Virus record (IMG/VR): IMGVR_UViG_3300004463_000172 | Span: 1 to 49,710 of that record | Source of the DNA: a virus | Strand: one strand, 5' to 3' | Length of the DNA: 49,710 nucleotides | In this document: positions 17,101 to 41,305 of the stretch, piece by piece | How positions within the stretch are numbered: position 1 is the stretch's first letter | Layout of the letters: every line of letters begins with the position of its first letter | Notes under the pieces: generated by a model | Databases searched by the model: none | Told to the model about the DNA's origin: nothing | What the model saw: only the letters and a program-made list of their open reading frames with translations | Program-made: the position numbers and the translations under genes

Positions 17101-20100
17101 GGTCGAGCGCCTCTACGACGAGCTCGACACGTTCCGCTACCAGGAGCGAACCTGGAATTGGCTCAAGCCGGGCGAGCGGGTCGGCACCGTCGAGGGCGCC
17201 GGCGGGCACGCTGAGATCAAGGCGGGCGCGGCCGGCGCGCCGGTCTACGACGACGTGATCGCCTTCTCGCCGGTCAACCTGTATCGCGGCAAGCCGGCGA
17301 AGACCGCGCGCGGCTCGCGGGCGGATGTGCGCGCCGCGGCCGAGGCGGTGCTGCAGTCGCGCGACATCGCCAGCAACCTGGCCGAGGGCGTCGTGCGCGT
17401 CGCCGAGCACCGGGCCGCTGGCGAGATGCGCGACCTGTCGCCGCGGTGGCTCCCGCCGCCCACCGGCGTCGAGGCCTCGGTCAGCTTCACCAACGCGCTG
17501 CAGGAAGACCTCGACCGCCTGATCGACCAGGGGCCCGACGCGGTCGAGCCCGAGGGCCCGGTCGACCTAACGTTCGACGAAGCGATCGACGACCTGATGC
17601 AGAGCCTGTTCGACCTCGAGCCGGACGACACGCTCGAGACTGGCGAGAAGCAGCCGCGGCTCCCGGGCGCCGGCGAGGCGCGCAAGGTCGGCAAGGCCGA
17701 CACCAGCTTCCGCGCGCCGGTGCAGGCGACCAGCGAAGACTTCGAGCTGACGCCCGAGGGCGCCCCTGCCGAGACCGAGGATCAGGGCGAGCTGTTCCAG
17801 CGGATGCCGCCCGAGGTCGAAGGCTTCGAGGTGGTCGACCCCTACCTTGCGCCGGACGAACGTGAGCGCCTCACGGCCCCGCACGCCGAAGCGATCGTCG
17901 ATGCGTTCCTCGAGCTGCCGAAGGATCTGGACTTCGAGCAGGTGGCGCTGGCGGGCCAGGCGGCGCGCGGCTGGTATCGGCGCGCGACCAAGGCGATCTA
18001 TCAGGTCTTCGGCCCGGTCGACGGGGCGCGCTTCACCGGGCTGCTGTCGGCACTCTCGCCGCGGGTCAAGGTCGCCGAGAACCTCGAGAACGCGATCCTG
18101 ATGTGGAACGCCTGGGTGGAGGCAGGGCGCCCCACCGACGAGTCGACGATCACCCGGATCATGCGCAAGGCGGTGCGCCGCGGCAAGGGCGTGCTGCCGT
18201 CGTGGGGCAACAACGTCGTCCGCGCGCTGCAGGTCGAGGATCCGCACGACCTCGTGCTCTCGGGCCCGAAGGTGCATAGCTTCGCGCGCAACCTGAAGGG
18301 CTACCAGGACGAGGTCACCAACGACATCTGGATGGCGATCTTTGCCAACCTCGATCAATCGCTGTTCGGCGGCAACATCAACAAGGCCGGCACGTTCTCC
18401 GGGCGCAGCGCCTTCTACACGGCGATGGCCGCCAAGGTGCGGCGCGTCGCCGAGCGGCTGACCGAAAAGACCGGCGAGACCTGGACGCCGGCCGAAGTGC
18501 AGGAAACCATCTGGTCGTGGGTGATGACGCTCTACCAGCTGGCGCAGAGCACCGGCGCGACGGCCGAGGAGATCGTGCGTCGCGGCGAGCTCACCGATGC
18601 ACAGATCCGCGAGGCGCCGCAGTTCACCGACTTGTTAGCCACAAATGCCGAGATCCGTGCTATCTTCGAGGCCGGAGGGTATGGGGATGCGCTCGCGGCC
18701 GTCGAAGCGGAATTTACGCAACCTGCTGCTGCAGACGTCCGCCCTGCGACAGAGCGACGAGCAGCGCCGGCTCGCAAAGGTGCGACGGTTGGCCTCCTCC
18801 GCAGCGCCCAGCGCGTCGACGTCTTCCGCCGTCAGCGCGAAGCCGCTCGCGCCGACGCCGACGAGCTCTACCAGCTAGAAGACGGACCCAAGCCGGTCTT
18901 CTACTCCCGCCTCGTGCGGGCCGTTGATACCTCCAAACAAGCCAAAGCCCCCGGCGCGCAGTGGAAGGCGGCGATCCGCAACGCCAAGGGCGGCATCGCC
19001 AAAGACGAATTTGCCATCGCGCGCGTCGACGACCTCGAGGACGGGCGTAGCTACACCAAGGCCGAAGTGCTCGACTACCTCGCCGCGAACACGCTGCAGG
19101 TGGAGACGGTGCGCCTCGGCGCGCGTAGCTACACGCCGCAGCAGGTGCAGCAGCGCGCGGGCGAGCTCTTCGAGGCGGAGGTCAATCGCCAGATCGAACG
19201 GGCGGAAGAGAGAGGCGAGCTAGATGACATGACCGTGTCCGTGGAAGCCGTCGAGACCGAGGACGGCTTCGAGGTTTACCTCAATGATGAGGCGACAGGC
19301 GACGTCTACGAGAGCCGCGACGAGGCGCTCGAGCGCGGGTATTCGCTGGCCGACGCGCACGAACAAGGGCTCCGCGAAGACTTCGTGGCCGAGATCGGGA
19401 ACGGGCTGAACTACGCCGAGTTCGAGGCGCAGGCCGAGGAAGAGTTCGACGCTGGCGGGTCGGCGGTGCAGTTTGCCCAATACGTCGAGCCGGGCCTTGA
19501 GGAAGGCAGCTACCAGGAAGTGTTCCTGACGGTGCCGCACCTGCCTCAGTTGGCGCGCGATCCGGTGGTCAGCTATCGGTATATCGCGCCGTCGTCCCTG
19601 CACCCGGGCAAGGTCAACGTCGAGCCGCGGATCAACGGGCGTGAGCTCGAGCTGCCGGATGGCGGGCACTACGTGACGGTGCCGGCCGACGCCACCGAGG
19701 CCGAGATCAAGGACGCGATCCGCGACGCCTACGGCGAGGTGCTCAGCCAGGGGATGCCGCTGCGCTGGTGGGACGGGCACAACGACTACGACCACATCGA
19801 GAACCCGATCGTGCGCGTGCGGCTGGGCGTGCGGCAGACGGTCGACAGCCAGCGCGTGCTGTTCCTCGAGGAGGTGCAGCCGCCGAGCGAAGAGAATCAG
19901 CAGCAGATGCCGCCGCTGCTGATCAAAAACTGGCGCGAGCTCGGGTTCAAGTGGGCGCTGCAGGAAGCCGCCGCGCGCGGGCTCGCCGGCGTTGCCTGGA
20001 CGACCGGCGACCAGCAGCGCGACCGCTACCGGCTGTCGACGCAAGTGCGCAAACTGGACTGGCAACCGCGCCTGCACGGCAGCACGGAAGCCTCGACGCG

Positions 20101-23100
20101 CTGGGTTGAGATGGACACCGGCGCCGGCCTGGTGCGGTTCAACGTCGACGCGAAGGGCACCGTGCTCGAGGAGGACGCCTCGCAGCTGGCGCAGCAATTC
20201 GTCGGCAAGAACCTGAAGGACATGGTCGGCCCCGAGCTCGCCGCGAAGATCCAGGGTGAGGACCGCGGCACGCTCGAGGGGCAGGCGATCGACATCGGCG
20301 GGCTCGGGCTCAAGCGGCTCTACGACGTCGACTTCCGCAACGTCGTGCAGGGCCTGCCGGCGGTGAAGCAGCACGGCGGGCGCGTGGAGGTGGCGGCGCT
20401 GAAGCGGGGCGACCCCGACGCCGAGTATCGGATCGAGGAGCGGCCGGACTTCCAGACCGCCAGCCAACGCACCGCGGAGCAGAACGCGGCGGTGGCCGCG
20501 ATCGACGAGCAGCTCAACGCGCTGTTGGAGAGCAGCACGACGGCCGACCCGCGTTATCAGGCGCTCTCCGCCGAGCGCGACCGCGCGGCGTCTCGCGTGC
20601 AGTTTGTGGTGATCAAGCGCGTGCCCGGTGTGCTCGAGCAGCGGGTCGGCGGCTTCGCCACGCGCGAACAGGCCGAGGCCGAGCTCACGGCGCAGCAGCA
20701 GACCGACCAGCCCTACCTGCCGCTGACGCCGCAGATGCGCGAGGCGCTGCTCGCCGGCCAGGCGCTCTTCCAAGAGGATCAGCCGCCCGGCGTCCCGCCG
20801 GCGGGATGGGAGAAGGCGACCCCGGAGCCGCCCAAGGCGCGCGGCAGCTACAACCGCACGCACCGGATCATCACGCTCTTCCAGACCGCCAACCCGTCGA
20901 CGATCCTGCACGAGACCGGGCACCACTTCCTCGAGCTGTGGGCGAACCTCGCGGTGCAGCCCGACGCCTCGCCGCGGCTGAAGGCCGATGCCCTGGCGCT
21001 CTTGCGCTTCGGCGGGTGGCAGGGTGACCTCGAGACGTGGCAGACGCTCACGACCGACGCCCGGCGCGACGTCCACGAGAAGGTCGCCCGCGGCTTCGAG
21101 GCCTACCTGTTCGAGGGCAAGGCGCCGACCTCGACGCTGCGCTCGGCGTTCGCCACGTTCCGCGCCTGGCTGCTGGGCGTCTACCAGACGGTGCTGCGGC
21201 TGAACGTGCAGCTGACACCCGAGGTGCGCGGCGTGTTCGACCGCCTGATCGCCTCCGATGCCGCCATCGCCCAGGCCGAGCAAGAGGCAGCGGTGCAGCC
21301 GATGTTCCTGACGGCCGAGCAGGCCGGCATGTCGGAGGCCGCCTTCGCGCCCTACAAGGCCGCGATTGCCACCGCGTCCCGGGCGGCGCGCGAGACGCTC
21401 GATCGGAAGCTGTTGCAGGAGGTGCGCCGCGAGCAGACCGCGCGCTGGGAAGAGGACAAGGCGCAGATCCGCGAGGAGGTCAAGGCCAACCTCTACGCCC
21501 TGCCGACCTACCGCGCGCTGGCGGCGATGCGCAGCGGCACCAACCCCGACGGCTCGCCGCTGATGGAAGGCGAGGCGACGCTGCCGCCGATGCGCCTGTC
21601 GCGCCAGCTGCTGGTTGAGAAGTTCGGCCCGGAGCGCCTGCGCCAGCTGCCGCGCGGGATCTACAGCGCGGCCGGCGGGCTCGACCCTGACTTCGTCGCC
21701 GAGCACTTCGGGTTCACGAGCGGCGATGCGATGCTGCGCGCGGTCGCCGTCGCGCCGAAGCTGACCCAGGCGGTCGAGGAGGAGACCCAGCGCCGCATGA
21801 TCGAGCAGCACGGCTCGCTGCTGCTCGACGGCACGCTGCTCGAGGAGGCGCAGGCGGCGGTCGCCAACGAGGACCGCGAGCAAATCCTGCGCATGGAGCT
21901 GCGCGCCCTGGCCCGGCTGCGGGCGCTCGCCAAGCCGGCGCTGCAGGAAGCGGCGGGGCAGCTACGCGCCGAGCGGCAGGAGCGCGCCTACGAGCGGCGC
22001 TGGCTCGAGGCCGAGGCCAAGCTGCGGATCGCGTTTGCCGAGGGGCGCAAGCAGGCCGAGATCGACGCGCTCGCCGGCGAGGTCGCCGACCTGCGCGCCC
22101 GAGCCCGCGGCGGTGCGGCGGTGATCCGCGCGGCGCTGCCGCCAGCGGAGCTGGTGCGCAACCAGGCGCGCGAGCGGCTGGCGGCGATGCGCGTCGGGGA
22201 TCTGCAGCCGCAGCGGTTTTGGGCGGCGGCGCGGCAGGCGGCCAAGCGCGCGCTCGAGGCGGCGGCGCGCCAGGACTTCGACGCCGCCATCCTGGCGAAG
22301 CAGCAGGAGCTGATGGAGGTCGCGCTCTACCGGCAGGCGATGCAGCTGCGCGAGGAGATCGAGACGCGCACGCGCCAGGCGCAGGCGCTCGACACGCCGG
22401 CCAGCCGCGCGCGGATGGGCAAGGCGGGGCAGACCTACCAGGAGCAGATCGACGATCTGCTCGACCGCTACGAGTTCGCCCGCGTGCCGCAGCGCCAGCT
22501 GGCGAAGCGCGCGAACCTGCGCAAGTGGATCGCCGCGATCGAGGGCGAGGGCCTGCCGATCGACTTACCCGAGTCGGTGGTCGAGGACACGCGCCGCGTG
22601 AACTACCGCGAGCTCACCGTCGAGGAGTTCCTCGGGGTCACCGACGCGCTGCAGCAGATCGCGCACTTTGCCCGGCTAAAGAACCGGCTGCTGGCGGCGA
22701 AGCAGGAGCGCGAGCTGGCGGCGGTCTCCGCCAACCTGGCGCGGTCGATCCGCGACCAGCATGTCGGCGGCCCGCGGAAGGACGTCGTCGGCGACCGGCG
22801 GCCGACCGAGGAGGCGTGGCGCACCGTCGCCGACTTCTTCGGCGGGCACCGCAAGCTGTCCAACATCCTGCGCGACCTCGACGGCTATCAGGACGGCGGC
22901 GCGGCTTGGGAGGCGATCCTGCGGCCGCTGAACGAGGCCGGTGACCGCGAGGCCGTGATGATGGCGGATGCCACCGCGGCGTTCGGCAACCTCGTCGAAC
23001 GCGCCTTCCCCGGCCGGCAGAAGCGCACGCTGTATCAGCCGGTCGAGATCAAGGCGATCGGCAAGAGCCTCAGCCGGATGCAAACGATCACGGTGGCGCT

Positions 23101-24796
23101 GAATTGGGGCAACGCCGACAACCGGCAGCGCGTGCAGGACGGGTTCGGGTGGACGCCGGAGCAGGTGCAGGCGATCCTCGACACGCTCACCGCCAGCGAC
23201 CTCGCCTTCGTCCAGGGCGTGTTCGACTGGTATGACTCCTACTGGCCGCTGATCGAGGCGAAGCAGCGGCGGGTGACCGGGCTGGCGCCCGAGAAGGTCG
23301 AGGCGCTGCCGATCAAGGCCCGCGCCGGCGAGATCCGCGGCGGCTATCACCCGCTGAAATACGATGACCGCCTGAGCGCCGGCGCGATCAAGGCGCTCGA
23401 CCTCGAGGCGGCCAACCTGGCGAAGCAGGCGGCCTACACCAACGCGACCACCCGGCGCGGGCACACCGAGGCGCGGCTCGCCGTGGTGAAGCTGCCGGTG
23501 CGGCTCGACTTCGGAGTGATCTACGAGCACGTCACCCAGGTGATCCACGACCTGTCGCACCACGAGGCGCTGCTCGACGTCGGCCGCATCCTCGGGCAGA
23601 AGGCGGTGCAGGAGGCGATCCTCGAGACCAAGGGGGATCTGATCTACAAGCAGATCCGCAACGCGGTGCGCGACATCGCCTTCGGCGCGGTGCCGGCGGT
23701 GAACGGGTTCGAGCGCGCGGTCAACCATATCCGCCAGGGCGCCACCGTCGTCGGCCTCGGCTGGAACTTCACGACCGCGGCGCTGCAGCCGCTGGGCCTT
23801 AGCAACTCCATGTTCCAGATCGGGCCGACGTGGGTCGCCCGCGGCCTCCTGCGCTGGCTGCGCACCCCGACGACGATGGGGCAGACCGTCGAGTGGATCA
23901 GCGAGGTGTCGCCCATGATGCGGATGCGCGGGCAGACCCAGCAGCGCGAGATCAACGAGATCCGCCAGCAGATCGGACTCTCCACCGGGCGGGTGACCGG
24001 CTGGGTCGATGCGGCGCTCGAGGCGGTCGGCGACCCGGTGACGCGGCACGGCATCGCCGACAGCTACTTCTGGATGATCCAGCAGATGCAGCGCGTCGCC
24101 GACGTGCCGACGTGGCTCGGCGCCTACGAGAAAGCGATGGCCCGCGGCGAACAGGAGGACCGCGCCATCGCGCTGGCCGACCAGGCGGTGCTCGACAGCC
24201 AGGGCGGCGGGCAGATCAAAGACCTCTCGCAGGTGCAGCGCGGCGGGCCGATGATGAAGCTGTGGACGAACTTCTACAGCTTCTTCAACGTGCTGCACCA
24301 GCAGCACCGCGAGGCGCACGGACGCGCCGCGCGCGAGAGCAACTACGCGGTCAAGGTCGGGCGGCTCGGCGCCGACTACCTGATGCTGTTCGTGATCCCG
24401 GCGACGCTGGGCTATTTGCTGCGCAACGGGCTGCGCCCCGGCAACGAGGACGATGACGACGCCAATACTTGGGCTGCCATCTTGGGGGAAAATGCGGCGT
24501 ATCTGGCGGGCACGATGCTTGGCCTGCGCGAGGTCAGCGGCGCGATTCAGGGCAGCTACGGCTACGAGGGCCCGGCGGGCGCACGGGCGTTTGCCACCTT
24601 CTCGCGGCTGGCGCAGCAGGTGAAGCAGGGCGAGCTCGACGCGGCGCTCTACCGGGCGACCCTGGAGAGCGCGGGGATCCTGTTCCACTTCCCAGCCGCG
24701 CAGGTGCGGCGGACGCTGGAAGGCCTCGCGGCGCTGGCCGAGGGGAAAACGCTCAACCCGATGGCGATCCTGACCGGCCCGCCTCGGCGACAGTAA
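14108..24796 (+). CDS. Giant polyvalent internal virion/ejection protein with zincin motif
   Basis: 3,562 residues in one open frame. Segments in order: N-terminal helical region; hydrophobic Gly/Ala stretch (about 190-250); a domain common in phage virion proteins (about 380-470, GTVNLYQQPVVQNADGT and later RRTGRHLGIFTDP); Ala/Pro linker; a large conserved domain (about 1245-1530, YLAPDERERLT, FTGLLSALSPRVKVAEN); a domain with VLFLEEVQPP near 1919 and AGVAWTTGDQQRDRY; a zincin motif HETGHH with His2268, Glu2269, His2272; long coiled coils (about 2380-2900); and a C-terminal region (about 2945-3562) of the ejection-protein type with a hydrophobic stretch near 3420. This is the polyvalent-protein architecture: virion-carried multidomain proteins delivered with DNA. 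Two stretches (16872-17015, 18687-18795) have poor codon character in this frame and good character in another. Confidence 0.8.
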   Translation: MLPEDDDPPGAPPRSRYDDFFDEQDRREERRVRASLIQTADTSPDRAAEARRLAIRMGAPVAMVEANLDAFRQRDQAESVPAARIAKESPHLAGFIGQSPNNAAIVKDDLQQLGLLEWLVTAPQRAAAQGFNQITYGRLRHQSLFRDLTQEERDQMNSAKLHMEAGGELGASGSWFRSAVTGASQQLPILLGAGWGAATRGVQAAGVGAVAGAAIGAGGGPLGMALGIASGIGTGLTVGSLAGGAEFSYELESGLAYDEFLNFRDEHGLPLDPAAAKGAALAAGVINAGLETAGGFVLARTFKALGLERLSSAGVRSIVKQALRTPTVRGAITDMVKSYGGAVTGEVSTEIAQRAVTIIAGEMAKGQAPQATVPGLVQPGTVNLYQQPVVQNADGTTSTVDSLSVGLDGHEVLLPTVTPDGRHFTGTPEQVQDAAIAEYRRTGRHLGIFTDPASATAFAQQLHEDFAAGHYTGTGYFRSVAQIATDLAQEGIGALQSMALTVLPGPLISVHADLRQAKRAAQAQQWFQALSEGVTQSATVTKMPQVAQELLAQATKDGPLEHTYAPTDSFAQYWTEQGVDPRAMATELTGDADAWDRAIRLQEDLQIPTSRYAVKLAGTEHHKFFSRELRLGDPDAWNQREVEAYVAAEAAKPKPEPAAPTAGDLFEAKIAERLTGAAFTPGQAAPIAALYRQTYEHAAAELGRPLERLVEEQGLREVVRPDVPRPVEQVIAEATTAEVPAERQAAPGAPQAAPATGAPQAAEGPQGAQPAATAAFLAYGPSGPLYNITGGPHDRSTVSAAKLTELGIAVPETPADTGERLTGAQLREQAVAARAALETSTPRAAVLARLIDAAPEADAAAEIAVQQVATRDQPIDWRDPVAAAKQMLAEDPQIMAKARALAERTRATRKEAPPRAKKGATSAAQTAAAEAGAVVSDRVGEQPPAGAGGAVEGGGPGRGAEPRGVSASLRGIPELDEVFERQSPEQIAARLTPEVLAEVERLYDELDTFRYQERTWNWLKPGERVGTVEGAGGHAEIKAGAAGAPVYDDVIAFSPVNLYRGKPAKTARGSRADVRAAAEAVLQSRDIASNLAEGVVRVAEHRAAGEMRDLSPRWLPPPTGVEASVSFTNALQEDLDRLIDQGPDAVEPEGPVDLTFDEAIDDLMQSLFDLEPDDTLETGEKQPRLPGAGEARKVGKADTSFRAPVQATSEDFELTPEGAPAETEDQGELFQRMPPEVEGFEVVDPYLAPDERERLTAPHAEAIVDAFLELPKDLDFEQVALAGQAARGWYRRATKAIYQVFGPVDGARFTGLLSALSPRVKVAENLENAILMWNAWVEAGRPTDESTITRIMRKAVRRGKGVLPSWGNNVVRALQVEDPHDLVLSGPKVHSFARNLKGYQDEVTNDIWMAIFANLDQSLFGGNINKAGTFSGRSAFYTAMAAKVRRVAERLTEKTGETWTPAEVQETIWSWVMTLYQLAQSTGATAEEIVRRGELTDAQIREAPQFTDLLATNAEIRAIFEAGGYGDALAAVEAEFTQPAAADVRPATERRAAPARKGATVGLLRSAQRVDVFRRQREAARADADELYQLEDGPKPVFYSRLVRAVDTSKQAKAPGAQWKAAIRNAKGGIAKDEFAIARVDDLEDGRSYTKAEVLDYLAANTLQVETVRLGARSYTPQQVQQRAGELFEAEVNRQIERAEERGELDDMTVSVEAVETEDGFEVYLNDEATGDVYESRDEALERGYSLADAHEQGLREDFVAEIGNGLNYAEFEAQAEEEFDAGGSAVQFAQYVEPGLEEGSYQEVFLTVPHLPQLARDPVVSYRYIAPSSLHPGKVNVEPRINGRELELPDGGHYVTVPADATEAEIKDAIRDAYGEVLSQGMPLRWWDGHNDYDHIENPIVRVRLGVRQTVDSQRVLFLEEVQPPSEENQQQMPPLLIKNWRELGFKWALQEAAARGLAGVAWTTGDQQRDRYRLSTQVRKLDWQPRLHGSTEASTRWVEMDTGAGLVRFNVDAKGTVLEEDASQLAQQFVGKNLKDMVGPELAAKIQGEDRGTLEGQAIDIGGLGLKRLYDVDFRNVVQGLPAVKQHGGRVEVAALKRGDPDAEYRIEERPDFQTASQRTAEQNAAVAAIDEQLNALLESSTTADPRYQALSAERDRAASRVQFVVIKRVPGVLEQRVGGFATREQAEAELTAQQQTDQPYLPLTPQMREALLAGQALFQEDQPPGVPPAGWEKATPEPPKARGSYNRTHRIITLFQTANPSTILHETGHHFLELWANLAVQPDASPRLKADALALLRFGGWQGDLETWQTLTTDARRDVHEKVARGFEAYLFEGKAPTSTLRSAFATFRAWLLGVYQTVLRLNVQLTPEVRGVFDRLIASDAAIAQAEQEAAVQPMFLTAEQAGMSEAAFAPYKAAIATASRAARETLDRKLLQEVRREQTARWEEDKAQIREEVKANLYALPTYRALAAMRSGTNPDGSPLMEGEATLPPMRLSRQLLVEKFGPERLRQLPRGIYSAAGGLDPDFVAEHFGFTSGDAMLRAVAVAPKLTQAVEEETQRRMIEQHGSLLLDGTLLEEAQAAVANEDREQILRMELRALARLRALAKPALQEAAGQLRAERQERAYERRWLEAEAKLRIAFAEGRKQAEIDALAGEVADLRARARGGAAVIRAALPPAELVRNQARERLAAMRVGDLQPQRFWAAARQAAKRALEAAARQDFDAAILAKQQELMEVALYRQAMQLREEIETRTRQAQALDTPASRARMGKAGQTYQEQIDDLLDRYEFARVPQRQLAKRANLRKWIAAIEGEGLPIDLPESVVEDTRRVNYRELTVEEFLGVTDALQQIAHFARLKNRLLAAKQERELAAVSANLARSIRDQHVGGPRKDVVGDRRPTEEAWRTVADFFGGHRKLSNILRDLDGYQDGGAAWEAILRPLNEAGDREAVMMADATAAFGNLVERAFPGRQKRTLYQPVEIKAIGKSLSRMQTITVALNWGNADNRQRVQDGFGWTPEQVQAILDTLTASDLAFVQGVFDWYDSYWPLIEAKQRRVTGLAPEKVEALPIKARAGEIRGGYHPLKYDDRLSAGAIKALDLEAANLAKQAAYTNATTRRGHTEARLAVVKLPVRLDFGVIYEHVTQVIHDLSHHEALLDVGRILGQKAVQEAILETKGDLIYKQIRNAVRDIAFGAVPAVNGFERAVNHIRQGATVVGLGWNFTTAALQPLGLSNSMFQIGPTWVARGLLRWLRTPTTMGQTVEWISEVSPMMRMRGQTQQREINEIRQQIGLSTGRVTGWVDAALEAVGDPVTRHGIADSYFWMIQQMQRVADVPTWLGAYEKAMARGEQEDRAIALADQAVLDSQGGGQIKDLSQVQRGGPMMKLWTNFYSFFNVLHQQHREAHGRAARESNYAVKVGRLGADYLMLFVIPATLGYLLRNGLRPGNEDDDDANTWAAILGENAAYLAGTMLGLREVSGAIQGSYGYEGPAGARAFATFSRLAQQVKQGELDAALYRATLESAGILFHFPAAQVRRTLEGLAALAEGKTLNPMAILTGPPRRQ
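16346..16361. repeat. CCTGGGGCGCCCCAGG palindrome in a linker
   Basis: Perfect 16-bp palindrome inside the Ala/Pro/Gly linker of the giant gene. A partial second copy of its right half follows at about 16380. It resembles the GTCCCGCCGGCGGGAC family in style, not sequence. It may be only a by-product of repeated Pro-Gly-Ala codons. Confidence 0.5.
16872..17081 (+). CDS. Nested small gene, out of frame inside the giant gene (69 aa)
   Basis: GTG 16872 is preceded by AAGGGAG (16859-16865) with a 6-nt spacer. The first 47 residues (PLKPGRSYQTVLANSLLLVR, then AGLSRGEALAVALNHAG) match a well-known family of small phage and prophage proteins with the pattern PLKxGxS...T..N...L...G....A.A.AL..AG. 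In this frame only about 3 of the first 45 codons end in A or T. The giant frame drops to roughly half over the same bases and reads as Ala/Gly-rich filler. After about 17015 the giant frame regains normal codon use and this ORF's tail looks random. I infer a genuine separate gene overprinted by, or inserted in, the giant ORF. Confidence 0.65.
   Translation: MPRKLPPLKPGRSYQTVLANSLLLVRAGLSRGEALAVALNHAGYRPPSGGSPSSTRSSSASLPSRLPPA
18629..18644 (+). promoter_or_regulatory. Operator-like element inside the giant gene
   Basis: GACTTGTTAGCCACAA differs at one position from the promoter element at 39059-39074 (GACTTGTTAGCTACAA) and shares GACTTGTTA and ACAA with the copies at 27361 and 30909. It forces two rare Leu codons (TTG TTA) on the giant gene and lies 43 bp upstream of the nested ORF at 18687. 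No good -10 hexamer at standard spacing is visible, so promoter function is uncertain. Confidence 0.4.
18687..18878 (+). CDS. Second nested small ORF inside the giant gene (63 aa)
   Basis: ATG 18687 follows GGAGGG (18674-18679) with a 7-nt spacer. The first 36 or so codons (RSRPSKRNLRNLLLQTSALR, basic and helical) end in G or C about 86 percent of the time. The giant frame manages only about half over the same bases and reads as an Ala/Pro/Arg linker. After about 18795 the giant frame is good again. No family recognised. An operator-like site lies just upstream. Less certain than the nested gene at 16872 because the protein is not recognisable. Confidence 0.4.
   Translation: MRSRPSKRNLRNLLLQTSALRQSDEQRRLAKVRRLASSAAPSASTSSAVSAKPLAPTPTSSTS
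20792..20807. repeat. GTCCCGCCGGCGGGAC palindrome, copy 2 (one end base changed)
   Basis: GTCCCGCCGGCGGGAT. It lies in the linker of the giant gene between the VLFLEEVQ-containing region and the zincin domain, where it encodes VPPAG. Confidence 0.7.
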
Positions 24797-34097: not shown

Positions 34098-34255
34098 GCG
34101 ATCCGACCTACGTCAAAGCCGAGATCGACGCCAACCCGGTCTGGAAGCTGGCCTGGTGGATGAGCGAGATCGACAACGACAACGCGCCGATCGGGTGGGC
34201 CCGCTACATCAGCCTCGCGCGGGCGGTGATCGACCGGTTCCAGGTGAAGCCGTGA
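34094..34255 (+). CDS. Unknown 53-residue protein
   Basis: ATG 34094 overlaps the previous TGA. Trp-rich N-terminal half (ANPVWKLAWWMSEIDNDNAP) followed by a helix (GWARYISLARAVIDRF). Small proteins with this look are common next to phage helicase genes (recollection). Function unknown. Overlaps the helicase start by 4 bp. Confidence 0.6.
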   Translation: MSDPTYVKAEIDANPVWKLAWWMSEIDNDNAPIGWARYISLARAVIDRFQVKP

Positions 34256-36120
34256 AAGCGCCAACGCTACGCCCCTATCAGGAGGCCGGCCTCGCGGCCA
34301 TCGCCGCCGCGCGCGAGGCCGGCCAGAACCGGCAGCTGCTGCAGATGGCGACGGGCACCGGCAAGACGGTGCTCTTCGCCGCGCTGCCGCGCTGGCCGGC
34401 GATCCGCGCCTGGCTCGACACGTTCCCCGGCCGCCGGCGGATGCTGGTGATCGCCCACCGCGAGGAGCTGCTCGAGCAGGCGGCCGAGAAGATCCTGCGC
34501 GCCAACCCCGAGCTACTGGTCTCGATCGAGCAAGCCGACCGCTACGCCAGTCAGACGGCGGACGTGGTGGTCGCCTCCATCCAGACGCTGGCGGCGCGCG
34601 GCTTCCGGCGCCTGCAGCGGCTGCTGCAGCCCGGGCCGTTCCGGCTGGTGATCGTCGACGAGGCGCACCACGCCGCAGCCTCGACCTACCGCACCACGCT
34701 CGTCCACCTCGGGTTCCTGCCGCCGGCCGACGCCAGCGAGACGCAGAGCCTCGAGGCGCCGGCCTACGACGACGTCGTGAAGATGCAGCAGGCCCTGACC
34801 GGGTGGGACGCGCAGGCGCCGAAGGATCGCTTGCTGCTGGGCGTGACGGCGACGCCTAACCGGACGGACGCGATCGGCCTCGGCTGTGTGTTCCAGACGA
34901 TCGTCTACAGCTACCCGATCAAGCCGGCGGTAACCGACGGGCACCTCGTGCCGATCACGCCCTGGGTGATCGAGACCGACACCAACCTCGACGCGGTCCA
35001 CCTGACGGCCGGCGACTTCAACCAGCGCGAGCTCGCCGAGGCGGTCAACACGGCGAAGCGCAACCAGGTCGCGGTCGCCGCCTGGCGCGAGCACGCCGAG
35101 GGGCGCTCGACGCTGGCCTTCACGGTCGACGTCGCGCACGCGCACAGCCTCGCCGAGGCGTTCAACCAGGCGGGCGCGGTGGCGCGGCCGCTGTCGGGCG
35201 AGACGCCGCGTGACGAGCGCCGGCAGCTGCTGGCCGACTACCTCGCCGGCCGCGTGCAGATCCTGACCAACTGCATGGTGCTGACCGAGGGCACCGACCT
35301 GCCCCTCACTGGTTGCATCCTGCACGCGAAGCCGACCAAGAGCGCCACGCTCTACGAGCAGATGACCGGCCGCGGGCTGCGGCCGCACCCGGGCAAGGCC
35401 GACTGCCTCGTGATCGACGTCGTCGACATCGCGCGCCGGCACAGTCTGCAGACGGCGCCGGTGCTCTACGGCCTGCCGCCCGGGCTGGTGACGCAGGGGC
35501 AGAGCCTGGGGCAGGTCGAGGCCGACCTCGAGAAGCTGCGCGCGCAATACGACGGCGTGAACCTCGAGCAGCTGCTGGGCGGCAACCGGCTGACGCTGGC
35601 GCAGCTCGCGGCGAAGGCGTCCACGTTCGACATCTGGAAGATTCAGCCGATCGGCGACACGCTCGGCGAGGGCCGCGAGTTCGCCTGGGTCAAGACCGGC
35701 GACGACGTCTACCGTCTCAGCTACCCGTGGCAGGATGCTGGCGGCGCCGAGGGCAACGAGACGATCCAGATCAGCCGCGACATGCTGGGCCGCTTCGAGG
35801 TCGTGCTGACGTGGCGCGAGCGCACGCTGCCGGGCACCTACAAGGCGGCGCAGGTGCGGCAACGCACGCTGCTGCGCGAGGCGGAGACCGCGGCCGCGGC
35901 GGCGACGATCGCGGAGACGTTCGTCCGCAACGAGCGCGGCGAGGTGCGAAAGCTGAAGGCCGCCGACGCGCCCTGGCAGAAGCGCCCCGCGAGCGAGAAG
36001 CAGCTCGCGTTCCTGCAGCGGCTGCGCGTCCCGTTCAAGCCGCCGCTGACGATGGGGCAGGCGGGTCGACTGATCGACATGGCGATGGCGCGGCGGGGCG
36101 CAGGAGGGCGGCGTCGATGA
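34252..36120 (+). CDS. Superfamily 2 DEAD/DEAH-type helicase
   Basis: GTG 34252, 622 residues. LRPYQEAGLAAI (Q-region), Walker A MATGTGKT starting at residue 32, DEAH at 136-139, motif III TATPNRTD, and motif VI QMTGRGLRPHPGK. An N-terminal and a second RecA-like domain span about 1-420, followed by about 200 residues with a C-terminal segment RPASEKQLAFLQRLRVPF. An ATP-driven DNA or RNA translocase, probably for replication or recombination, given its neighbours. The stop overlaps ATG 36117. Confidence 0.88.
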   Translation: MKAPTLRPYQEAGLAAIAAAREAGQNRQLLQMATGTGKTVLFAALPRWPAIRAWLDTFPGRRRMLVIAHREELLEQAAEKILRANPELLVSIEQADRYASQTADVVVASIQTLAARGFRRLQRLLQPGPFRLVIVDEAHHAAASTYRTTLVHLGFLPPADASETQSLEAPAYDDVVKMQQALTGWDAQAPKDRLLLGVTATPNRTDAIGLGCVFQTIVYSYPIKPAVTDGHLVPITPWVIETDTNLDAVHLTAGDFNQRELAEAVNTAKRNQVAVAAWREHAEGRSTLAFTVDVAHAHSLAEAFNQAGAVARPLSGETPRDERRQLLADYLAGRVQILTNCMVLTEGTDLPLTGCILHAKPTKSATLYEQMTGRGLRPHPGKADCLVIDVVDIARRHSLQTAPVLYGLPPGLVTQGQSLGQVEADLEKLRAQYDGVNLEQLLGGNRLTLAQLAAKASTFDIWKIQPIGDTLGEGREFAWVKTGDDVYRLSYPWQDAGGAEGNETIQISRDMLGRFEVVLTWRERTLPGTYKAAQVRQRTLLREAETAAAAATIAETFVRNERGEVRKLKAADAPWQKRPASEKQLAFLQRLRVPFKPPLTMGQAGRLIDMAMARRGAGGRRR

Positions 36121-36559: not shown

Positions 36560-36588
36560 TTGATCTCGGAAACGGCAGGCGCTATAAA
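36560..36588 (+). promoter_or_regulatory. Strong sigma70-type promoter of the gene-free region
   Basis: TTGATC (36560-36565), 17-nt spacer, TATAAA (36583-36588). It is the best -10 match noticed in the window and stands out in a GC-rich genome. Expected start point near 36595, at the base of the hairpin at 36596. No operator palindrome overlaps it, so it may be active from the moment of DNA entry. Confidence 0.65.
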
Positions 36589-36710
36589 ACGCGACGGCCC
36601 GCCGGCGAGGAGACTAACCTGCCGGCGGGCCATAAACCGCAAACCGTGGGCTGAACACGGAAGGCGGATCGTCGGCGTGGATTTTAGCACGGCACGACGT
36701 TCCCTCCTCC

Positions 36711-36727
36711 GACTTCTTACTCACAAA
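36711..36727 (+). promoter_or_regulatory. Degenerate operator-like site, copy 3
   Basis: GACTTCTTACTCACAAA, followed by GGACGATCC, resembles copy 1 (GACTTGTTACTCACAAG followed by CTACGATCC). The -35 is lost (CCGACT) and the spacer is one base longer, so promoter activity is doubtful. It may still bind the factor that reads the palindrome. Confidence 0.45.
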
Positions 36728-37111
36728 TTTGCGGACGATCCTCCTGTGAGGGAGGCGTGGCGTAAGGGCGCAACTCAGGGACGTGTGTGTCGTGGGGCGA
36801 TCCCCCGCGCTACCGGACAGATGGGCGCACGTTGAGCCAGGGGTAGAGGACCGCTGGCAAAAGAACGGGGCGGCAGCCAAGCACCGGATGCGCGAGACAT
36901 CACGACCGGCAGGCCGGCACGCGGGGGCCTGCTCAGCGTCGAGCGGGTCACGTTAAGGCGGGACCGGCAGCCTGACGGCAGGCTCTGCTACACCCGGCCG
37001 CTCGCAAGTGGGGATGGTCGCCCGGCACCTAAACGAAGCCGGGCCGGGCACGTTCTTGGCGCCTGCTATCGACACCAACGGGTAAGGCTACGTGTGGGCA
37101 GCGTGTCCCGG

Positions 37112-37143
37112 CACCTTCGGTGGCGGGCCCCGCGGTGTTTTTT
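37112..37143 (+). terminator. Intrinsic terminator before the DnaB operon
   Basis: An interrupted stem, CACC (37112-37115) with GGTG (37134-37137) enclosing GCGG-GCC-CCGC, is followed directly by TTTTTT (37138-37143) and CTCTCTT. This is the only strong oligo-T tract after a GC-rich stem on the + strand. It would end transcription from the 36560 promoter just before the gene at 37165. Confidence 0.55.
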
Positions 37144-37164: not shown

Positions 37165-37650
37165 ATGGCGGACGACAAGCTGGACGACGCGACGACTGCC
37201 GAGCAGGCGCTGGCGCGGATGCTGAAGGCCGAGGCCAAGATCGAGGAGGTCGAGCGCGCGTTGAGCCGGGCCCACGACGAGCTCCGCGGCCTGCGGCAGC
37301 TGCTCGCGGGCGGCAACCCGGTCGGCGAGGCGATGCGCTTCTATGGCGACGCCTGGGCGAAGCTGCACGGCGGCGAGACCTACCAGTGGGAGCGCCCGAA
37401 AGCCACCAGCCAGATGAAGCAGCTGCTGAAGCTGCTGCCGCTCGACGACGTGAAGGCGCGCATGATCGCCTACCTGTCGGACAACGAGCCGTTCCTGGTC
37501 CGCAACGCCCACCCGTTCGCGCTGTTCGTGACGCGGGTCAACAGCTACAGCCCGAGGGCCCAGCCGCCGCCGGTCGGGTGCAAGCATCAGCCGCCCTGCC
37601 GATCAGACGTCGAGCACACCCAGCGCCGCGTGCAGGAGGCGCGGTCGTGA
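37165..37650 (+). CDS. Replication-region protein, possible helicase loader
   Basis: Start ATG 37165 follows GGAGGGAG. 161 residues. A heptad-like helix (LKAEAKIEEVERALSRAHDE) precedes a compact domain (GEAMRFYGDAWAKLHGGETY, LKLLPLDDVKARMIAYLSD, NAHPFALFVTRVNSYSP) resembling the C-terminal parts of phage replication proteins that sit beside DnaB. The stop overlaps the dnaB start, suggesting stoichiometric coupling. Loader or origin-recognition function is inferred from context only. Confidence 0.6.
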   Translation: MADDKLDDATTAEQALARMLKAEAKIEEVERALSRAHDELRGLRQLLAGGNPVGEAMRFYGDAWAKLHGGETYQWERPKATSQMKQLLKLLPLDDVKARMIAYLSDNEPFLVRNAHPFALFVTRVNSYSPRAQPPPVGCKHQPPCRSDVEHTQRRVQEARS

Positions 37651-39050
37651 CGTCCCGCCGGCGGGACGCCGACGAGCCGACCCTCCCGAGGAACCTCGAA
37701 GCCGAGAGAGCCACCCTGGGCGCCGCCCTGCTCAATCAGGCCGCCGCCGACTACCTCGCCGACCACCTCGCCGTCGAGAGCTACTACCGCCACGCGCATC
37801 AGCTGCTCTTCCGCGCCATCCAGACGCTGCGCCACACCGGCCGCGAGGTCGACTTGGTGACCATCAAGCAACAGCTCGGGACCAAGGGCCTCGAGGACGT
37901 CGGGGGGCCGGCCTATATTGCCAAGCTGGCCGACGGCACGGTCTCCCGGCACTACGCCGACTACGCCGCGGTGCTGGAAGACCTGCGGGCTAGGCGGGCC
38001 CTGGCGGGCTACGCGCGGGGCCTGCTGGAGGCGATCGAGACGCCCGGGCAGTCCGGGGCCTCCCTGCTGCTCGACGCCGACAAGCGCCTCCTAGAGCTCC
38101 AGGCGGGGCATCTGAACGGCCGGCACGCCGCCCTGGCCGACACGGTGCCGATGCTGATCGAAGACCTCGACTACCGGGCGCAGCACCGCGGGCAACTAAC
38201 CGGATTGGAGACCGGCTTCGGCTCCGTCAACGATTTGACGTTCGGGTGGCAGTCGGGCGACATGGTGATCATCGCGGCGCGCCCGTCGATCGGGAAGACC
38301 ACCTTTGCGCTCAACACGGCCTGGGCCGCCGCCTGCGCCGGGGCCCGGGTCGCCATCTTCTCGCTGGAGATGCGGCGCCGGCAGCTGGAATACCGGCTGC
38401 TCTCCTACGTCAGCGGCATCCCGCTCACCCGCCTGCTCTCGGGCTACATCCACGAGGCCGACGGGCCCAACCTGCACACCGCGCTGGAGGCGCTCAAGCA
38501 GGTGCGGATCGAGGTCGACGACGCGACCGGGCGCACCGCCTGGGAAATGCGCAGCGCCTGTCGCCGCTGGAAGGCCGAGGGCGGCCTTGACCTGGTGATC
38601 GTCGACTACGTGCAGCTGATGCCCGGCACGCTCGACAAGCGCGGCGCCACCCGCAACGAGGAGGTCACCGACATCAGCCGCCGGCTGAAGACGCTCGCGG
38701 ACGAGGCCGGCCTGCCGGTGCTGGTGCTCTCGCAGCTGAGTCGTCCGAGCGATACGCGGAGCGACCCGCGGCCGAAGCTGACCGACCTGCGCGAGTCGGG
38801 CGCGCTGGAGCAGGACGCCGACCTCGTCTGCTTCCTGCACCGCAAGCTGCACAAGGAGGGCGGGGCCACCGAGTTCATCCTCGAGAAGCAGCGCAACGGG
38901 CCGACCGGGACGATGATGCTGACGCTCGACCGCGATACGGTGACGTTCACCGACGGCGGCGAGCCGCTGCCCGAGCAGACCGCGGCCGAGAAGCAGGAAG
39001 TGCGCAAGGCGAAGCAGGTCTCGTTCTTCAAGCAACGCCGCCGCGGTTGA
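37647..39050 (+). CDS. dnaB: Replicative DNA helicase, DnaB family
   Basis: GTG 37647, 467 residues. N-terminal domain (NLEAERATLGAALLNQAAAD; HAHQLLFRAIQTLRHTG; VDLVTIKQQLG) and C-terminal RecA-like domain: LTGLETGFGSVNDLTFGWQS, Walker A RPSIGKTTFAL near 211-219, IFSLEMRRRQLEYRLLS, Walker B VIVDYVQLMPG, LSQLSR and ESGALEQDADLVCFLHR. Hexameric 5'-3' helicase for fork progression, complete in length. No primase gene is recognised, so host DnaG is probably recruited. A perfect copy of the 16-bp palindrome spans codons 2-7. The stop overlaps the next promoter's -35. Confidence 0.9.
   Translation: MTSRRRDADEPTLPRNLEAERATLGAALLNQAAADYLADHLAVESYYRHAHQLLFRAIQTLRHTGREVDLVTIKQQLGTKGLEDVGGPAYIAKLADGTVSRHYADYAAVLEDLRARRALAGYARGLLEAIETPGQSGASLLLDADKRLLELQAGHLNGRHAALADTVPMLIEDLDYRAQHRGQLTGLETGFGSVNDLTFGWQSGDMVIIAARPSIGKTTFALNTAWAAACAGARVAIFSLEMRRRQLEYRLLSYVSGIPLTRLLSGYIHEADGPNLHTALEALKQVRIEVDDATGRTAWEMRSACRRWKAEGGLDLVIVDYVQLMPGTLDKRGATRNEEVTDISRRLKTLADEAGLPVLVLSQLSRPSDTRSDPRPKLTDLRESGALEQDADLVCFLHRKLHKEGGATEFILEKQRNGPTGTMMLTLDRDTVTFTDGGEPLPEQTAAEKQEVRKAKQVSFFKQRRRG
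37652..37667. repeat. GTCCCGCCGGCGGGAC palindrome, copy 4
   Basis: Exact copy at the very 5' end of the dnaB gene, starting five bases after the first base of its GTG start. A hairpin here could affect translation initiation. Confidence 0.8.
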
Positions 39051-39084: not shown

Positions 39085-39312
39085 ATGATGACCCGCCGCG
39101 AGCTCCGCTCCACCTACACCGATCAGCACACCCTCAGCCTCGTCGAAGAGCACGAGCGGTATTACGTCTATCTGAGCGAAGAGCGCCCAGGGCCCGGCGC
39201 GGAGCTAGGCGTGCTCATCGGCGATGGCACCTCCGACACCGCGGCGATCATGTCGGCCGAGGAGCGCCTGCACAAACTCTGGCGGCGGACCCAGGAGCTG
39301 CGCCGGCGGTGA
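39085..39312 (+). CDS. Unknown 75-residue protein, first gene of third early operon
   Basis: Tandem ATGs at 39085 and 39088. Beta-rich first half (HTLSLVEEHERYYVYLSEER), then a loop and a basic C-terminal helix (SAEERLHKLWRRTQELRRR). No family recognised. It has no upstream ribosome-binding site and is probably read from a leaderless mRNA. The stop overlaps the next GTG. Confidence 0.65.
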   Translation: MMTRRELRSTYTDQHTLSLVEEHERYYVYLSEERPGPGAELGVLIGDGTSDTAAIMSAEERLHKLWRRTQELRRR

Positions 39313-40208
39313 TCTACATCGGCATCGACCCCGGCGTGAGCGGCGGCATTGCGGCCGTGACGGCAGACGGCACACTGGTCGGGGCGATGCCCATGCCTGA
39401 TACCGACCGCGATGTCCTCGAGGCGCTCGGGGCATTACAGGTCGACGGTATCGGTGAGAGCCGAGCTGTGATCGAACGGTCGGGCGCATCCCCGCAGATG
39501 GGCGTGGTGTCAGCGTTCACCTACGGCCGCAGCTATGGCGCGCTGCTGATGGCGCTCACCGCGGCGCGGATCCGGTTCGATGCCATCGCCTCGTGGAAGT
39601 GGCAGCAAACGATAGGGTGTCTGTCGCGCGGTGACAAGAACGTGACCAAGCGCCGCGCGCAGCAGCTGTTCCCCGGTGTCAAGGTCACGCACGCAATCGC
39701 CGACGCACTGCTGCTCGCTGAATATGCGCGGCGGCTCGAGGTGCGATCGAAGCCCAGCGCGGAGGGGAGCGTCGGCAATCCCGCCGGCGTCACAGAGGAT
39801 CGCCGCGTGAGAACCGGTGTTGACCGAGCCGGGGGATCATCGGTCCGCAAAGCGAGGCGAGATGGCGAAGCGAAGCAAGAAGGTCAAGGTGGCGCCCGGC
39901 CGGAAGAAGAAGACCGCCGCGGCGCGCGAAGCGAAACCCGCGCGCCGGCGCCCCGCGTCGCCGCGCAGCCAGGTGCTGCCCGGGATGGAGCAGGTGCGCT
40001 CGAAGGCGCTCGACAACCTCTGCGAGGGGCTGGCCGACGTGCGGGCGTCGATGAACAGCGCGAAGCAGGAGGAGACGGGCCTGATCCAGTCGGCGCTGCA
40101 GACGATGGTGCGGCGCAACGTCCAAGTCTACAAGCACGGCGGCATCGAGCTGGCGCGGGTGCCGGGCGCCGAGAAGCTGCGCGTGCGCGTGATCAAGGAG
40201 CAGGGTGA
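39309..40208 (+). CDS. RuvC-like Holliday junction resolvase, C-terminus run on into next gene
   Basis: GTG 39309. Residues 1-150 have the RNase H fold of phage RuvC-type resolvases: YIGIDPGVSGGIAAVT (Asp7), SRAVIERSG (Glu), WKWQQTIGCLSRGDKN, KRRAQQLFPG, and THAIADALLLAEYARR with the final Asp. The family is usually about 150-180 residues. Here the frame continues for some 130 more residues, overlapping the 39862 gene by 347 bp, and that extension has poor codon character. I infer loss of the original stop near 39770-39860. The functional enzyme should lie in 39309-39760. It would cut recombination or replication junctions before packaging. Confidence 0.75.
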   Translation: MIYIGIDPGVSGGIAAVTADGTLVGAMPMPDTDRDVLEALGALQVDGIGESRAVIERSGASPQMGVVSAFTYGRSYGALLMALTAARIRFDAIASWKWQQTIGCLSRGDKNVTKRRAQQLFPGVKVTHAIADALLLAEYARRLEVRSKPSAEGSVGNPAGVTEDRRVRTGVDRAGGSSVRKARRDGEAKQEGQGGARPEEEDRRGARSETRAPAPRVAAQPGAARDGAGALEGARQPLRGAGRRAGVDEQREAGGDGPDPVGAADDGAAQRPSLQARRHRAGAGAGRREAARARDQGAG

Positions 40209-40311
40209 TGCCGACGCGAGCGACCTCCAGCAGGCCGAAGACGAAATCGCCGACGAGGTTGCCGCCGGCGGCGTCGAGGTCGAGGGCGCCGGTGCCGAAG
40301 GCGTCCACTAA
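39862..40311 (+). CDS. Unknown Lys-rich early protein
   Basis: ATG 39862 has GAGGCGAG immediately upstream. 149 residues. N-terminal 35 residues are Lys/Arg/Ala-rich (AKRSKKVKVAPGRKKK), followed by a helical region (SKALDNLCEGLADVRASMNS), a beta segment and an acidic Ala/Gly/Glu tail. Strong third-position GC supports this frame over the resolvase frame that overlaps it. No family recognised. The acidic tail overlaps the methyltransferase start region. Confidence 0.7.
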   Translation: MAKRSKKVKVAPGRKKKTAAAREAKPARRRPASPRSQVLPGMEQVRSKALDNLCEGLADVRASMNSAKQEETGLIQSALQTMVRRNVQVYKHGGIELARVPGAEKLRVRVIKEQGDADASDLQQAEDEIADEVAAGGVEVEGAGAEGVH

Positions 40312-41305
40312 GCTGGGCCCCGCCATCCAGCCGATCGTGATCGGCTGCTACACGTTGTCGGCGACCGGCCTCGTGGTGCGAGGCCGGCCGTCGTTCGGCG
40401 AGCACGAGGGCGTCGGCGACTTCATCAAGCGCGCGCACCGCTCGAGCGGGTTCTGGCTGGCTGACTGGCTGCGCTACGGCGAGAGCCGCGACGACTGGCG
40501 CAGTCGTCTCAGCCAGGCGGTGGACGCCACCGGCCTCAGCGAGAAGACGCTCAAGAACGTGCGGGCGGTGGGGGCCATGCCCCTATCCCGCCGGCGGGAC
40601 GATGTCGAGTTCGGCCAGCACGCCGAGGTCGCCGGCCTCGAGGCCGACGAGCAGCGGCACTGGCTGACGCAGGCGGCCGAGCAGGGCTGGGACCGCCGCG
40701 AGCTCCGGCTGCATATCCGCGCGTCGAAACGCGCCAAGGTGATCGACGGGCAGGCGGTGCTCGAGGGCATGTTCCGGGTGATCTACGCCGACCCGCCCTG
40801 GATCTACGGCGACCGGCAACCGAGCGGCTCGAGCAGCGCCGCGCACTATCCGGGGATGACGATCTTCGACCTCGAGGTGCTGCCCGTGAAGGCGCACGCG
40901 CTGCCCGACAGCGTGCTGTTCATGTGGACGACGGCGCCGCTGCTGCTGCAGAACCCTGGCCCGCGCGAGGTCGGCGAGGCCTGGGGCTACACCTACAAGC
41001 AGCAGATCGTGTGGGACAAGGTCGACGGCACCTACTCGCACTACACCGGCGGCAACCACGAGATCCTGACCATCTGGACGCGCGGCCGCTGCCTGCCGGA
41101 TCTGCCGACGGACCTGCCCGACAGCGTGCAGGTGCATCGCAAGACGCGCGAGCACAGCGCGAAGCCCGAGGCGTTCCGCCGGCTGATCGAGAAGCACTGG
41201 ACGCGCGGACCCTACCTCGAGCTGTTCGGCCGCGAGCCGATCCCCGGCTGGACGGTCTTCGGCAATGACGCGCGCCTGTGGGCGCAGGAAGCGGTGCCGG
41301 CGTGA
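40208..41305 (+). CDS. MT-A70 family N6-adenine methyltransferase
   Basis: Start ATG 40208 is chosen for AAGGAG (40196-40201) 6 nt upstream. A GTG at 40205 and a later GTG at 40337 are alternatives. 365 residues. The C-terminal domain has the catalytic motif YADPPWIYGD (Asp195 to Trp198), LPDSVLFMWTTAPLLLQ, KQQIVWDK, YTGGNHEILTIWTRG, HSAKPEAFRRLIEKHW and YLELFGREP, typical of MT-A70 phage enzymes. The N-terminal 150 residues hold a helical domain (FIKRAHRSSGFWLADWLRYG) found in some phage members. Methylates adenine N6 in DNA, probably against restriction. The first 104 bp overlap the upstream gene in another frame. Confidence 0.85.
   Translation: MPTRATSSRPKTKSPTRLPPAASRSRAPVPKASTKLGPAIQPIVIGCYTLSATGLVVRGRPSFGEHEGVGDFIKRAHRSSGFWLADWLRYGESRDDWRSRLSQAVDATGLSEKTLKNVRAVGAMPLSRRRDDVEFGQHAEVAGLEADEQRHWLTQAAEQGWDRRELRLHIRASKRAKVIDGQAVLEGMFRVIYADPPWIYGDRQPSGSSSAAHYPGMTIFDLEVLPVKAHALPDSVLFMWTTAPLLLQNPGPREVGEAWGYTYKQQIVWDKVDGTYSHYTGGNHEILTIWTRGRCLPDLPTDLPDSVQVHRKTREHSAKPEAFRRLIEKHWTRGPYLELFGREPIPGWTVFGNDARLWAQEAVPA
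40585..40600. repeat. GTCCCGCCGGCGGGAC palindrome, copy 5 (one end base changed)
   Basis: ATCCCGCCGGCGGGAC, between the N-terminal domain and the catalytic domain of the adenine methyltransferase gene. Read there in a different frame from copies 2 and 3 (SRRRD rather than PPAG). Confidence 0.7.

Follow-up and report, generated by a model that had tools for sequence, protein, structure and literature searches.

A conserved phage RNA with a predicted antisense partner beside the DnaB operon: a candidate for RNA-based control of DNA replication

The stretch at positions 36560-37143 of the window (the whole virus record that was analysed, 49,710 bases) belongs to a family of long phage RNAs that are intricately folded and had not been described before. 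A short antisense RNA that would match the 5′ end of the long one is predicted from the opposite strand, so that the locus would carry two overlapping RNA genes on opposite strands, a prediction that is well supported computationally. Antisense RNA control is best known from plasmids with an RNA-regulated copy number. We propose, with a probability of a little under one half, that the antisense-controlled long RNA starts or paces phage DNA replication, as the RNA II/RNA I pair does in plasmid ColE1. The arrangement could represent a new switch, run by RNA, for the replication of phage DNA, and this conserved RNA is a testable candidate for the start of replication in phages that have no recognisable initiator. 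If the proposal is true, replication control by RNA, so far seen in plasmids and in a few prophages of mycobacteriophages, also reaches a further phage lineage.

Among the genes recognised in the window were those for head, tail, Erf, helicase, DnaB, methylase and terminase. The upstream neighbour of the RNA stretch is a helicase of the ResIII/Helicase_C type (34156-36120, plus strand), and two small frames lie between its end and the gene-free stretch. Downstream there is a 161-aa protein (p161; 37165-37650, plus strand), which has this neighbour position across the RNA family, and then the DnaB-type replicative helicase (37647-39050, plus strand). After DnaB, a Holliday junction resolvase-like protein and an MT-A70 methylase are encoded (39309-41305), and these are kept with DnaB in most related phages. 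Elsewhere in the window one open frame of 3562 aa (14108-24796, 10.7 kb) accounts for one fifth of the phage genome. No tRNA was found in the window, the window proteins scanned included none recognised as an integrase or a partition protein, and the GC skew gave no clear origin signal. The family of p161 is unassigned, with no match in Pfam or PHROG. Its structural model is all-helical and confident (pLDDT 89.7), no relatives of the fold were found in the PDB, and the protein carries a conserved C-x-H-x3-C-x5-H motif. The protein is possibly a DnaB loader, or an RNA- or DNA-binding partner of the long RNA; the role of helicase loader is a guess, the fold being without a PDB match.

An earlier reading of this DNA from its letters only had proposed a gene-free transcription unit here, with a promoter at its start, perfect hairpins inside, and a stem followed by TTTTTT at its end. 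No frame is open over the whole of 36560-37143 and the homologues show no frame conservation, so that a protein-coding reading was rejected. The promoter is present as described, with the -35 box TTGATC (36560-36565), a spacer of 17 nt and the -10 box TATAAA (36583-36588), and it recurs at the same place in the homologues, where the TTGA-type -35 boxes reached a summed score of 121 vs -45 ± 13.5 in shuffles (0/5000). The promoters and terminators reported here are sequence predictions, and the sense promoter is a good sigma70-like one. The predicted long sense RNA has about 430-550 nt and spans 36595-37137 (plus strand). The perfect 11-bp hairpin at 36596-36631 and others were confirmed, and the stretch as a whole folds better than shuffles (z -3.0). 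At the 3′ end the outcome was mixed: the TTTTTT tract is there (37138-37143), but the stem before it is weak, and the tract is not conserved in the homologues. A plus-strand terminator was called at this site by a permissive scan but not by the standard one, and the plus-strand terminators in the homologues were at chance level. Similarly, the long closing pair suggested between 36596 and 37129 is 85% complementary, but it competes with the perfect local hairpin and was not seen in the homologues, which give it no support, and it was discarded. As had been supposed, no known RNA class was recognised: neither the window nor 12 homologous loci matched an Rfam family at the gathering threshold, and at permissive thresholds only chance-level matches were obtained.

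The family was assembled from 22 homologous loci in uncultured phage contigs (IMG/VR), which together with the window make n=23. One group was located via neighbour proteins (L002, L016-L023, L097, L099 and L100) and ten more via a p161 peptide pattern (L189-L192 and L196-L201), all added loci being confirmed by their neighbouring proteins. The place and orientation of the RNA are the same in the 23 loci. Nearly all of them lie downstream of the same helicase, which was not seen at L099, and the RNA is on the same strand as p161-dnaB, just upstream or one to a few genes before. In several members (e.g., L023, L189, L196, L200 and L201) other genes apparently lie between the RNA and p161. Clear core matches occur as one copy per phage record. 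A search of IMG/VR with the conserved-core pattern gave matches confined to this phage group, and no DNA relatives were found among cultured phages and plasmids.

The core helices P4-P7 could be aligned in 12 members, with 83.9% of the cells paired and 37 of the 47 pairs changed on both sides. The core covariation score was 0.467, vs 0.196 in shuffles (0/500) and no more than 0.111 when the partners were slid. The sequence-only reading had named covariation among homologues as a check on its proposal, and for the family this check was run and passed. A four-base contact between P4 and the P5 loop was 100% paired in 12/12 members, and 3/4 of its pairs have changed on both sides, with two-sided exchanges in L200 (CUAG:CUAG) and L201 (CCGA:UCGG); since these bases are nearly palindromic (CCGG/CUAG), the contact is possible within or between molecules. 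This large structured RNA family is new, and its strong covariation, together with the tertiary contact proposed, makes it a subject for structural work. The G-U pairs of the core lean to the sense strand (41 G-U vs 21 A.C, p 0.015), whereas P1 leans the opposite way (14 vs 24, with G-U on the antisense strand); the two polarities differ with a Fisher p of 0.007, the P1 count being rough because loop-proximal positions are included. A 3′ hairpin, P9, was seen by eye, in an alignment too poor for it to be counted. The pairing of CCCUUCCC with AGGGGA is plausible, but it is invariant, and it may instead be due to the purine-rich spacer in the promoter on the minus strand. A group I intron, prompted by an R/S-like pairing in L023, was rejected, since the RNA has a promoter of its own at its start, does not interrupt anything and has no Rfam match.

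A model of the core (R1), built from 12 training loci, found the held-out locus L002 (1.2e-11) and, more weakly, L017 (2.6e-4) and L016 (0.007), and it gave no match in the window or in several other diverged members. The covarying core P4-P7 was thus recognised in the training loci and in L002, and not in the window, where the core and 3′ part (36700-37137) have diverged, with hairpins present. The 5′ domain is what joins the window to the family. It has the sense promoter, a P1 hairpin (36596-36631) with a U-tract on the minus strand, a P2 hairpin of the form CCGUG-GGCUGAA-CACGG with a 7-nt loop (36644-36660), and, coming after P2, a P3 hairpin (36670-36699) whose loop AUUUUA has the A-NNN-TA form and reads TAnnnT on the minus strand. 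For the P2 hairpin, which shows covariation, a model (R2) was built with the window left out, and the best match of R2 in the whole window, both strands, was at 36637-36666 (E 0.0086; 1.1e-4 when the search was within the region only). By position, promoter and 5′ hairpins the window is a diverged family member. Its core differs, so the covariation result applies to the family without extending to the core of the window itself. The earlier claim of a new structured phage RNA is thus supported for the family; for the window its basis is the position, promoter and 5′ hairpins that the window has in common with the other members.

The minus strand of the 5′ domain carries signals too. Read on this strand, the P3 loop has the form TAnnnT in 22/23 members, and its variants (ATTCTA, ATTTTA, ATTATA, ATCTTA, ATCCTA and AGTATA) vary like a minus-strand -10 box. 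In the window this is an extended -10 element, TGC-TAAAAT (36681-36689, minus strand), with no good -35 box. Across the family the antisense -35 summed score was 34.8, vs -41.2 ± 13.6 in mononucleotide shuffles (0/5000), and TTG at a spacer of 17-18 was found in 11/23 members. Read on the minus strand, P1 gives a putative antisense terminator stem, followed by CGTTTTATA, with a terminator-like site at 36604-36592. The T-tract after P1 holds 5.9 T per 12 nt, vs 2.3 in the background (0/20000). A strict terminator rule was satisfied on the minus strand in 16/23 members (mean 3.7 and at most 8 in shuffles); the plus strand of this stretch satisfied it in 0/23. The start of P1 and the -10 hexamers used as anchors were picked by eye. 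This T-tract is partly the sense -10 box read backwards, but it persists where P1 is displaced 22-42 nt from the sense -10 (L016, L018, L019, L022, L191, L196 and L199). The predicted antisense RNA is 67-104 nt long (median 83), and in six cases its predicted fold was a hairpin, mostly with a 7-nt loop, plus a terminator hairpin; in the window it would have about 87-91 nt (36584-36674, minus strand) and the same form, with a 7-nt loop. The conserved antisense promoter and terminator in the 5′ domain are the main point that the sequence-only reading lacked, and they shift the likely function towards antisense-controlled replication. An origin of replication, which had been given there as an alternative to a structured RNA, may be part of the answer rather than a rival.

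In the mechanism that we propose, a host-type promoter would drive the long RNA, with its 5′ domain of three hairpins and its conserved, tertiary-folded core, and this RNA would prime or license the start of phage DNA synthesis, as an R-loop or as a primer. A minus-strand promoter in P3 would produce the short antisense RNA, which would cover P1 and P2 and end at P1; by binding the nascent 5′ hairpins it would cause the core to misfold, so that initiation is throttled. We infer transcription of both RNAs, pairing between them in the cell, and an action on the initiation of replication instead of on expression of the downstream operon. No conserved terminator for the sense RNA was found in the 23 loci, as expected for a primer transcript that runs on. 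In ColE1, RNA I binds the 5′ hairpins of RNA II and blocks the active fold. The likeness to this pair includes a sense RNA of about 500 nt from a sigma70-type promoter, in a replication context and not terminated, and a short antisense RNA over its 5′ hairpins that starts about 65-115 nt inside and ends at the sense start. A ColE1-type system was judged by an antisense RNA that matches the 5′ end of the sense RNA, has a separate promoter and terminates where the sense RNA starts; as a sequence prediction, this was found across the 23 loci. Unlike ColE1, the phage RNA has two antisense hairpins instead of three, the phage carries its own DnaB, the primer role is putative, and the conserved core with its P4-P5 contact is new; the window and 12 loci had no sequence or covariance relation to ColE1 or to the other plasmid antisense families in Rfam. 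A phage that encodes DnaB does not obviously need a primer of the RNA II type, which speaks against the primer reading, and we advance only tentatively, at somewhat less than even odds, that this phage family starts or paces its replication by a plasmid-like RNA pair, with the antisense RNA as a brake, despite its own DnaB.

The same pair of RNAs could instead control gene expression, if the long RNA serves the replication operon (p161, dnaB, resolvase and methylase) as its 5′ leader and the antisense RNA alters the folding of this leader, leading to attenuation or translation control of the operon, as in CopA/CopT, in pT181/pIP501 or in the RNA immunity of phages P4 and P1. The RNA always lies upstream of p161-dnaB on the same strand and, having no conserved terminator, should read into the operon, and the size and two-hairpin form of the antisense RNA fit. 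The missing terminator is, however, also a difficulty, because attenuation needs a conserved one at the leader end; moreover, intervening genes apparently precede p161 in several members, which makes direct translation control of p161 unlikely, and a covarying core of 300 nt exceeds what such leaders usually need, so that we regard a leader as rather unlikely, if still the strongest of the alternatives. The CopA/CopT pair resembles the present one in an antisense RNA of about 90 nt with one recognition hairpin and one terminator hairpin, but CopT is the leader of a rep messenger, whereas many members here have no rep gene directly after the RNA, and what the antisense RNA would target is about 400 nt of structured RNA.

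A role as a free-standing RNA machine or scaffold like GOLLD, ROOL or OLE, with an antisense RNA that only tunes its amount, appears improbable to us. The RNA is indeed large, GC-rich, strongly covarying, phage-encoded and without an Rfam match, and the palindromic loop contact (CCGG/CUAG) could also act between molecules. GOLLD and ROOL, large phage RNAs with kissing loops, are often near tRNA islands (PMC12286853). The present RNA, in contrast, keeps to a single site within the replication cluster, and the window has no tRNA. A dedicated antisense promoter and terminator, present in nearly all members, suggest that the folding or lifetime of the RNA is under control. The likeness to GOLLD, ROOL and OLE is that of large covarying phage or bacterial RNAs with loop-loop contacts; the gene context differs, a dedicated antisense RNA is predicted here, and the Rfam covariance models of GOLLD, ROOL, OLE and raiA gave no match. 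We consider it most improbable of all that the stretch works purely at the DNA level, as a replication origin in which the hairpins serve as cruciforms or binding sites and no RNA is functional. Such an origin would fit the adjoining DnaB and a conserved DNA box that precedes the -35 and is single in the genomes where it was found, but the excess of G-U over A.C on the sense strand of the core is that of an RNA, and promoters are conserved at precise places on both strands.

Among phages, a precedent for the proposed role is found in cluster A mycobacteriophages (RedRock, Alma and LadyBird), which have RNA-based prophage origins (PMC7157519). Both are non-coding RNA loci of phages proposed to start replication without an initiator protein, but the mycobacteriophage loci adjoin parABS and serve prophage maintenance (PMC7157519), while the RNA described here is in a helicase-DnaB cluster. 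R1 gave no match in a RedRock stretch that included the gene-free interval before parA (27.2-27.9 kb), its best hit there having an E of 0.38 over 27 nt. The acidobacterial phages Tunturi_3/4 have a distant helicase (34%), and the RNA was not found there.

Cellular genomes were covered by samples of two phyla, with strict filters and no positive control. Among 198 actinobacterial genomes R1 gave one weak match, within a T-box leader (E 7.8e-4), which is probably due to chance; the T-box model RF00230 had no match in the phage RNAs. A conserved core segment, GUGGRGCCG (e.g., about 640-660 in L097), can be set beside the T-box sequence AGGGUGG..CCGC. In 200 genomes of the phylum of an Achromobacter MAG, R1 found nothing, a weak test under these settings. 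The core pattern had 8 matches in cellular genomes, without the neighbour genes and, by eye, in unrelated sequence, and in five genomes with such matches R1 gave nothing better than E 0.7.

Two further features of the loci were observed. In L019, L023, L191, L197, L198, L199 and others a conserved DNA box of approximately CTACATCTTGGGGNGTTG lies upstream of the -35 of the sense promoter, and in many members it overlaps this -35. A shorter form, with up to 2 mismatches allowed, was found in 5/16 records, once each, at the sense promoter; a factor of the phage or of the host may bind to this box. Finally, L020 (9060-9370) and L192 (9635-9980) have a much shorter RNA of about 250 nt, in which the promoter and the 5′ hairpins are kept and the core differs, being nested and long-range.
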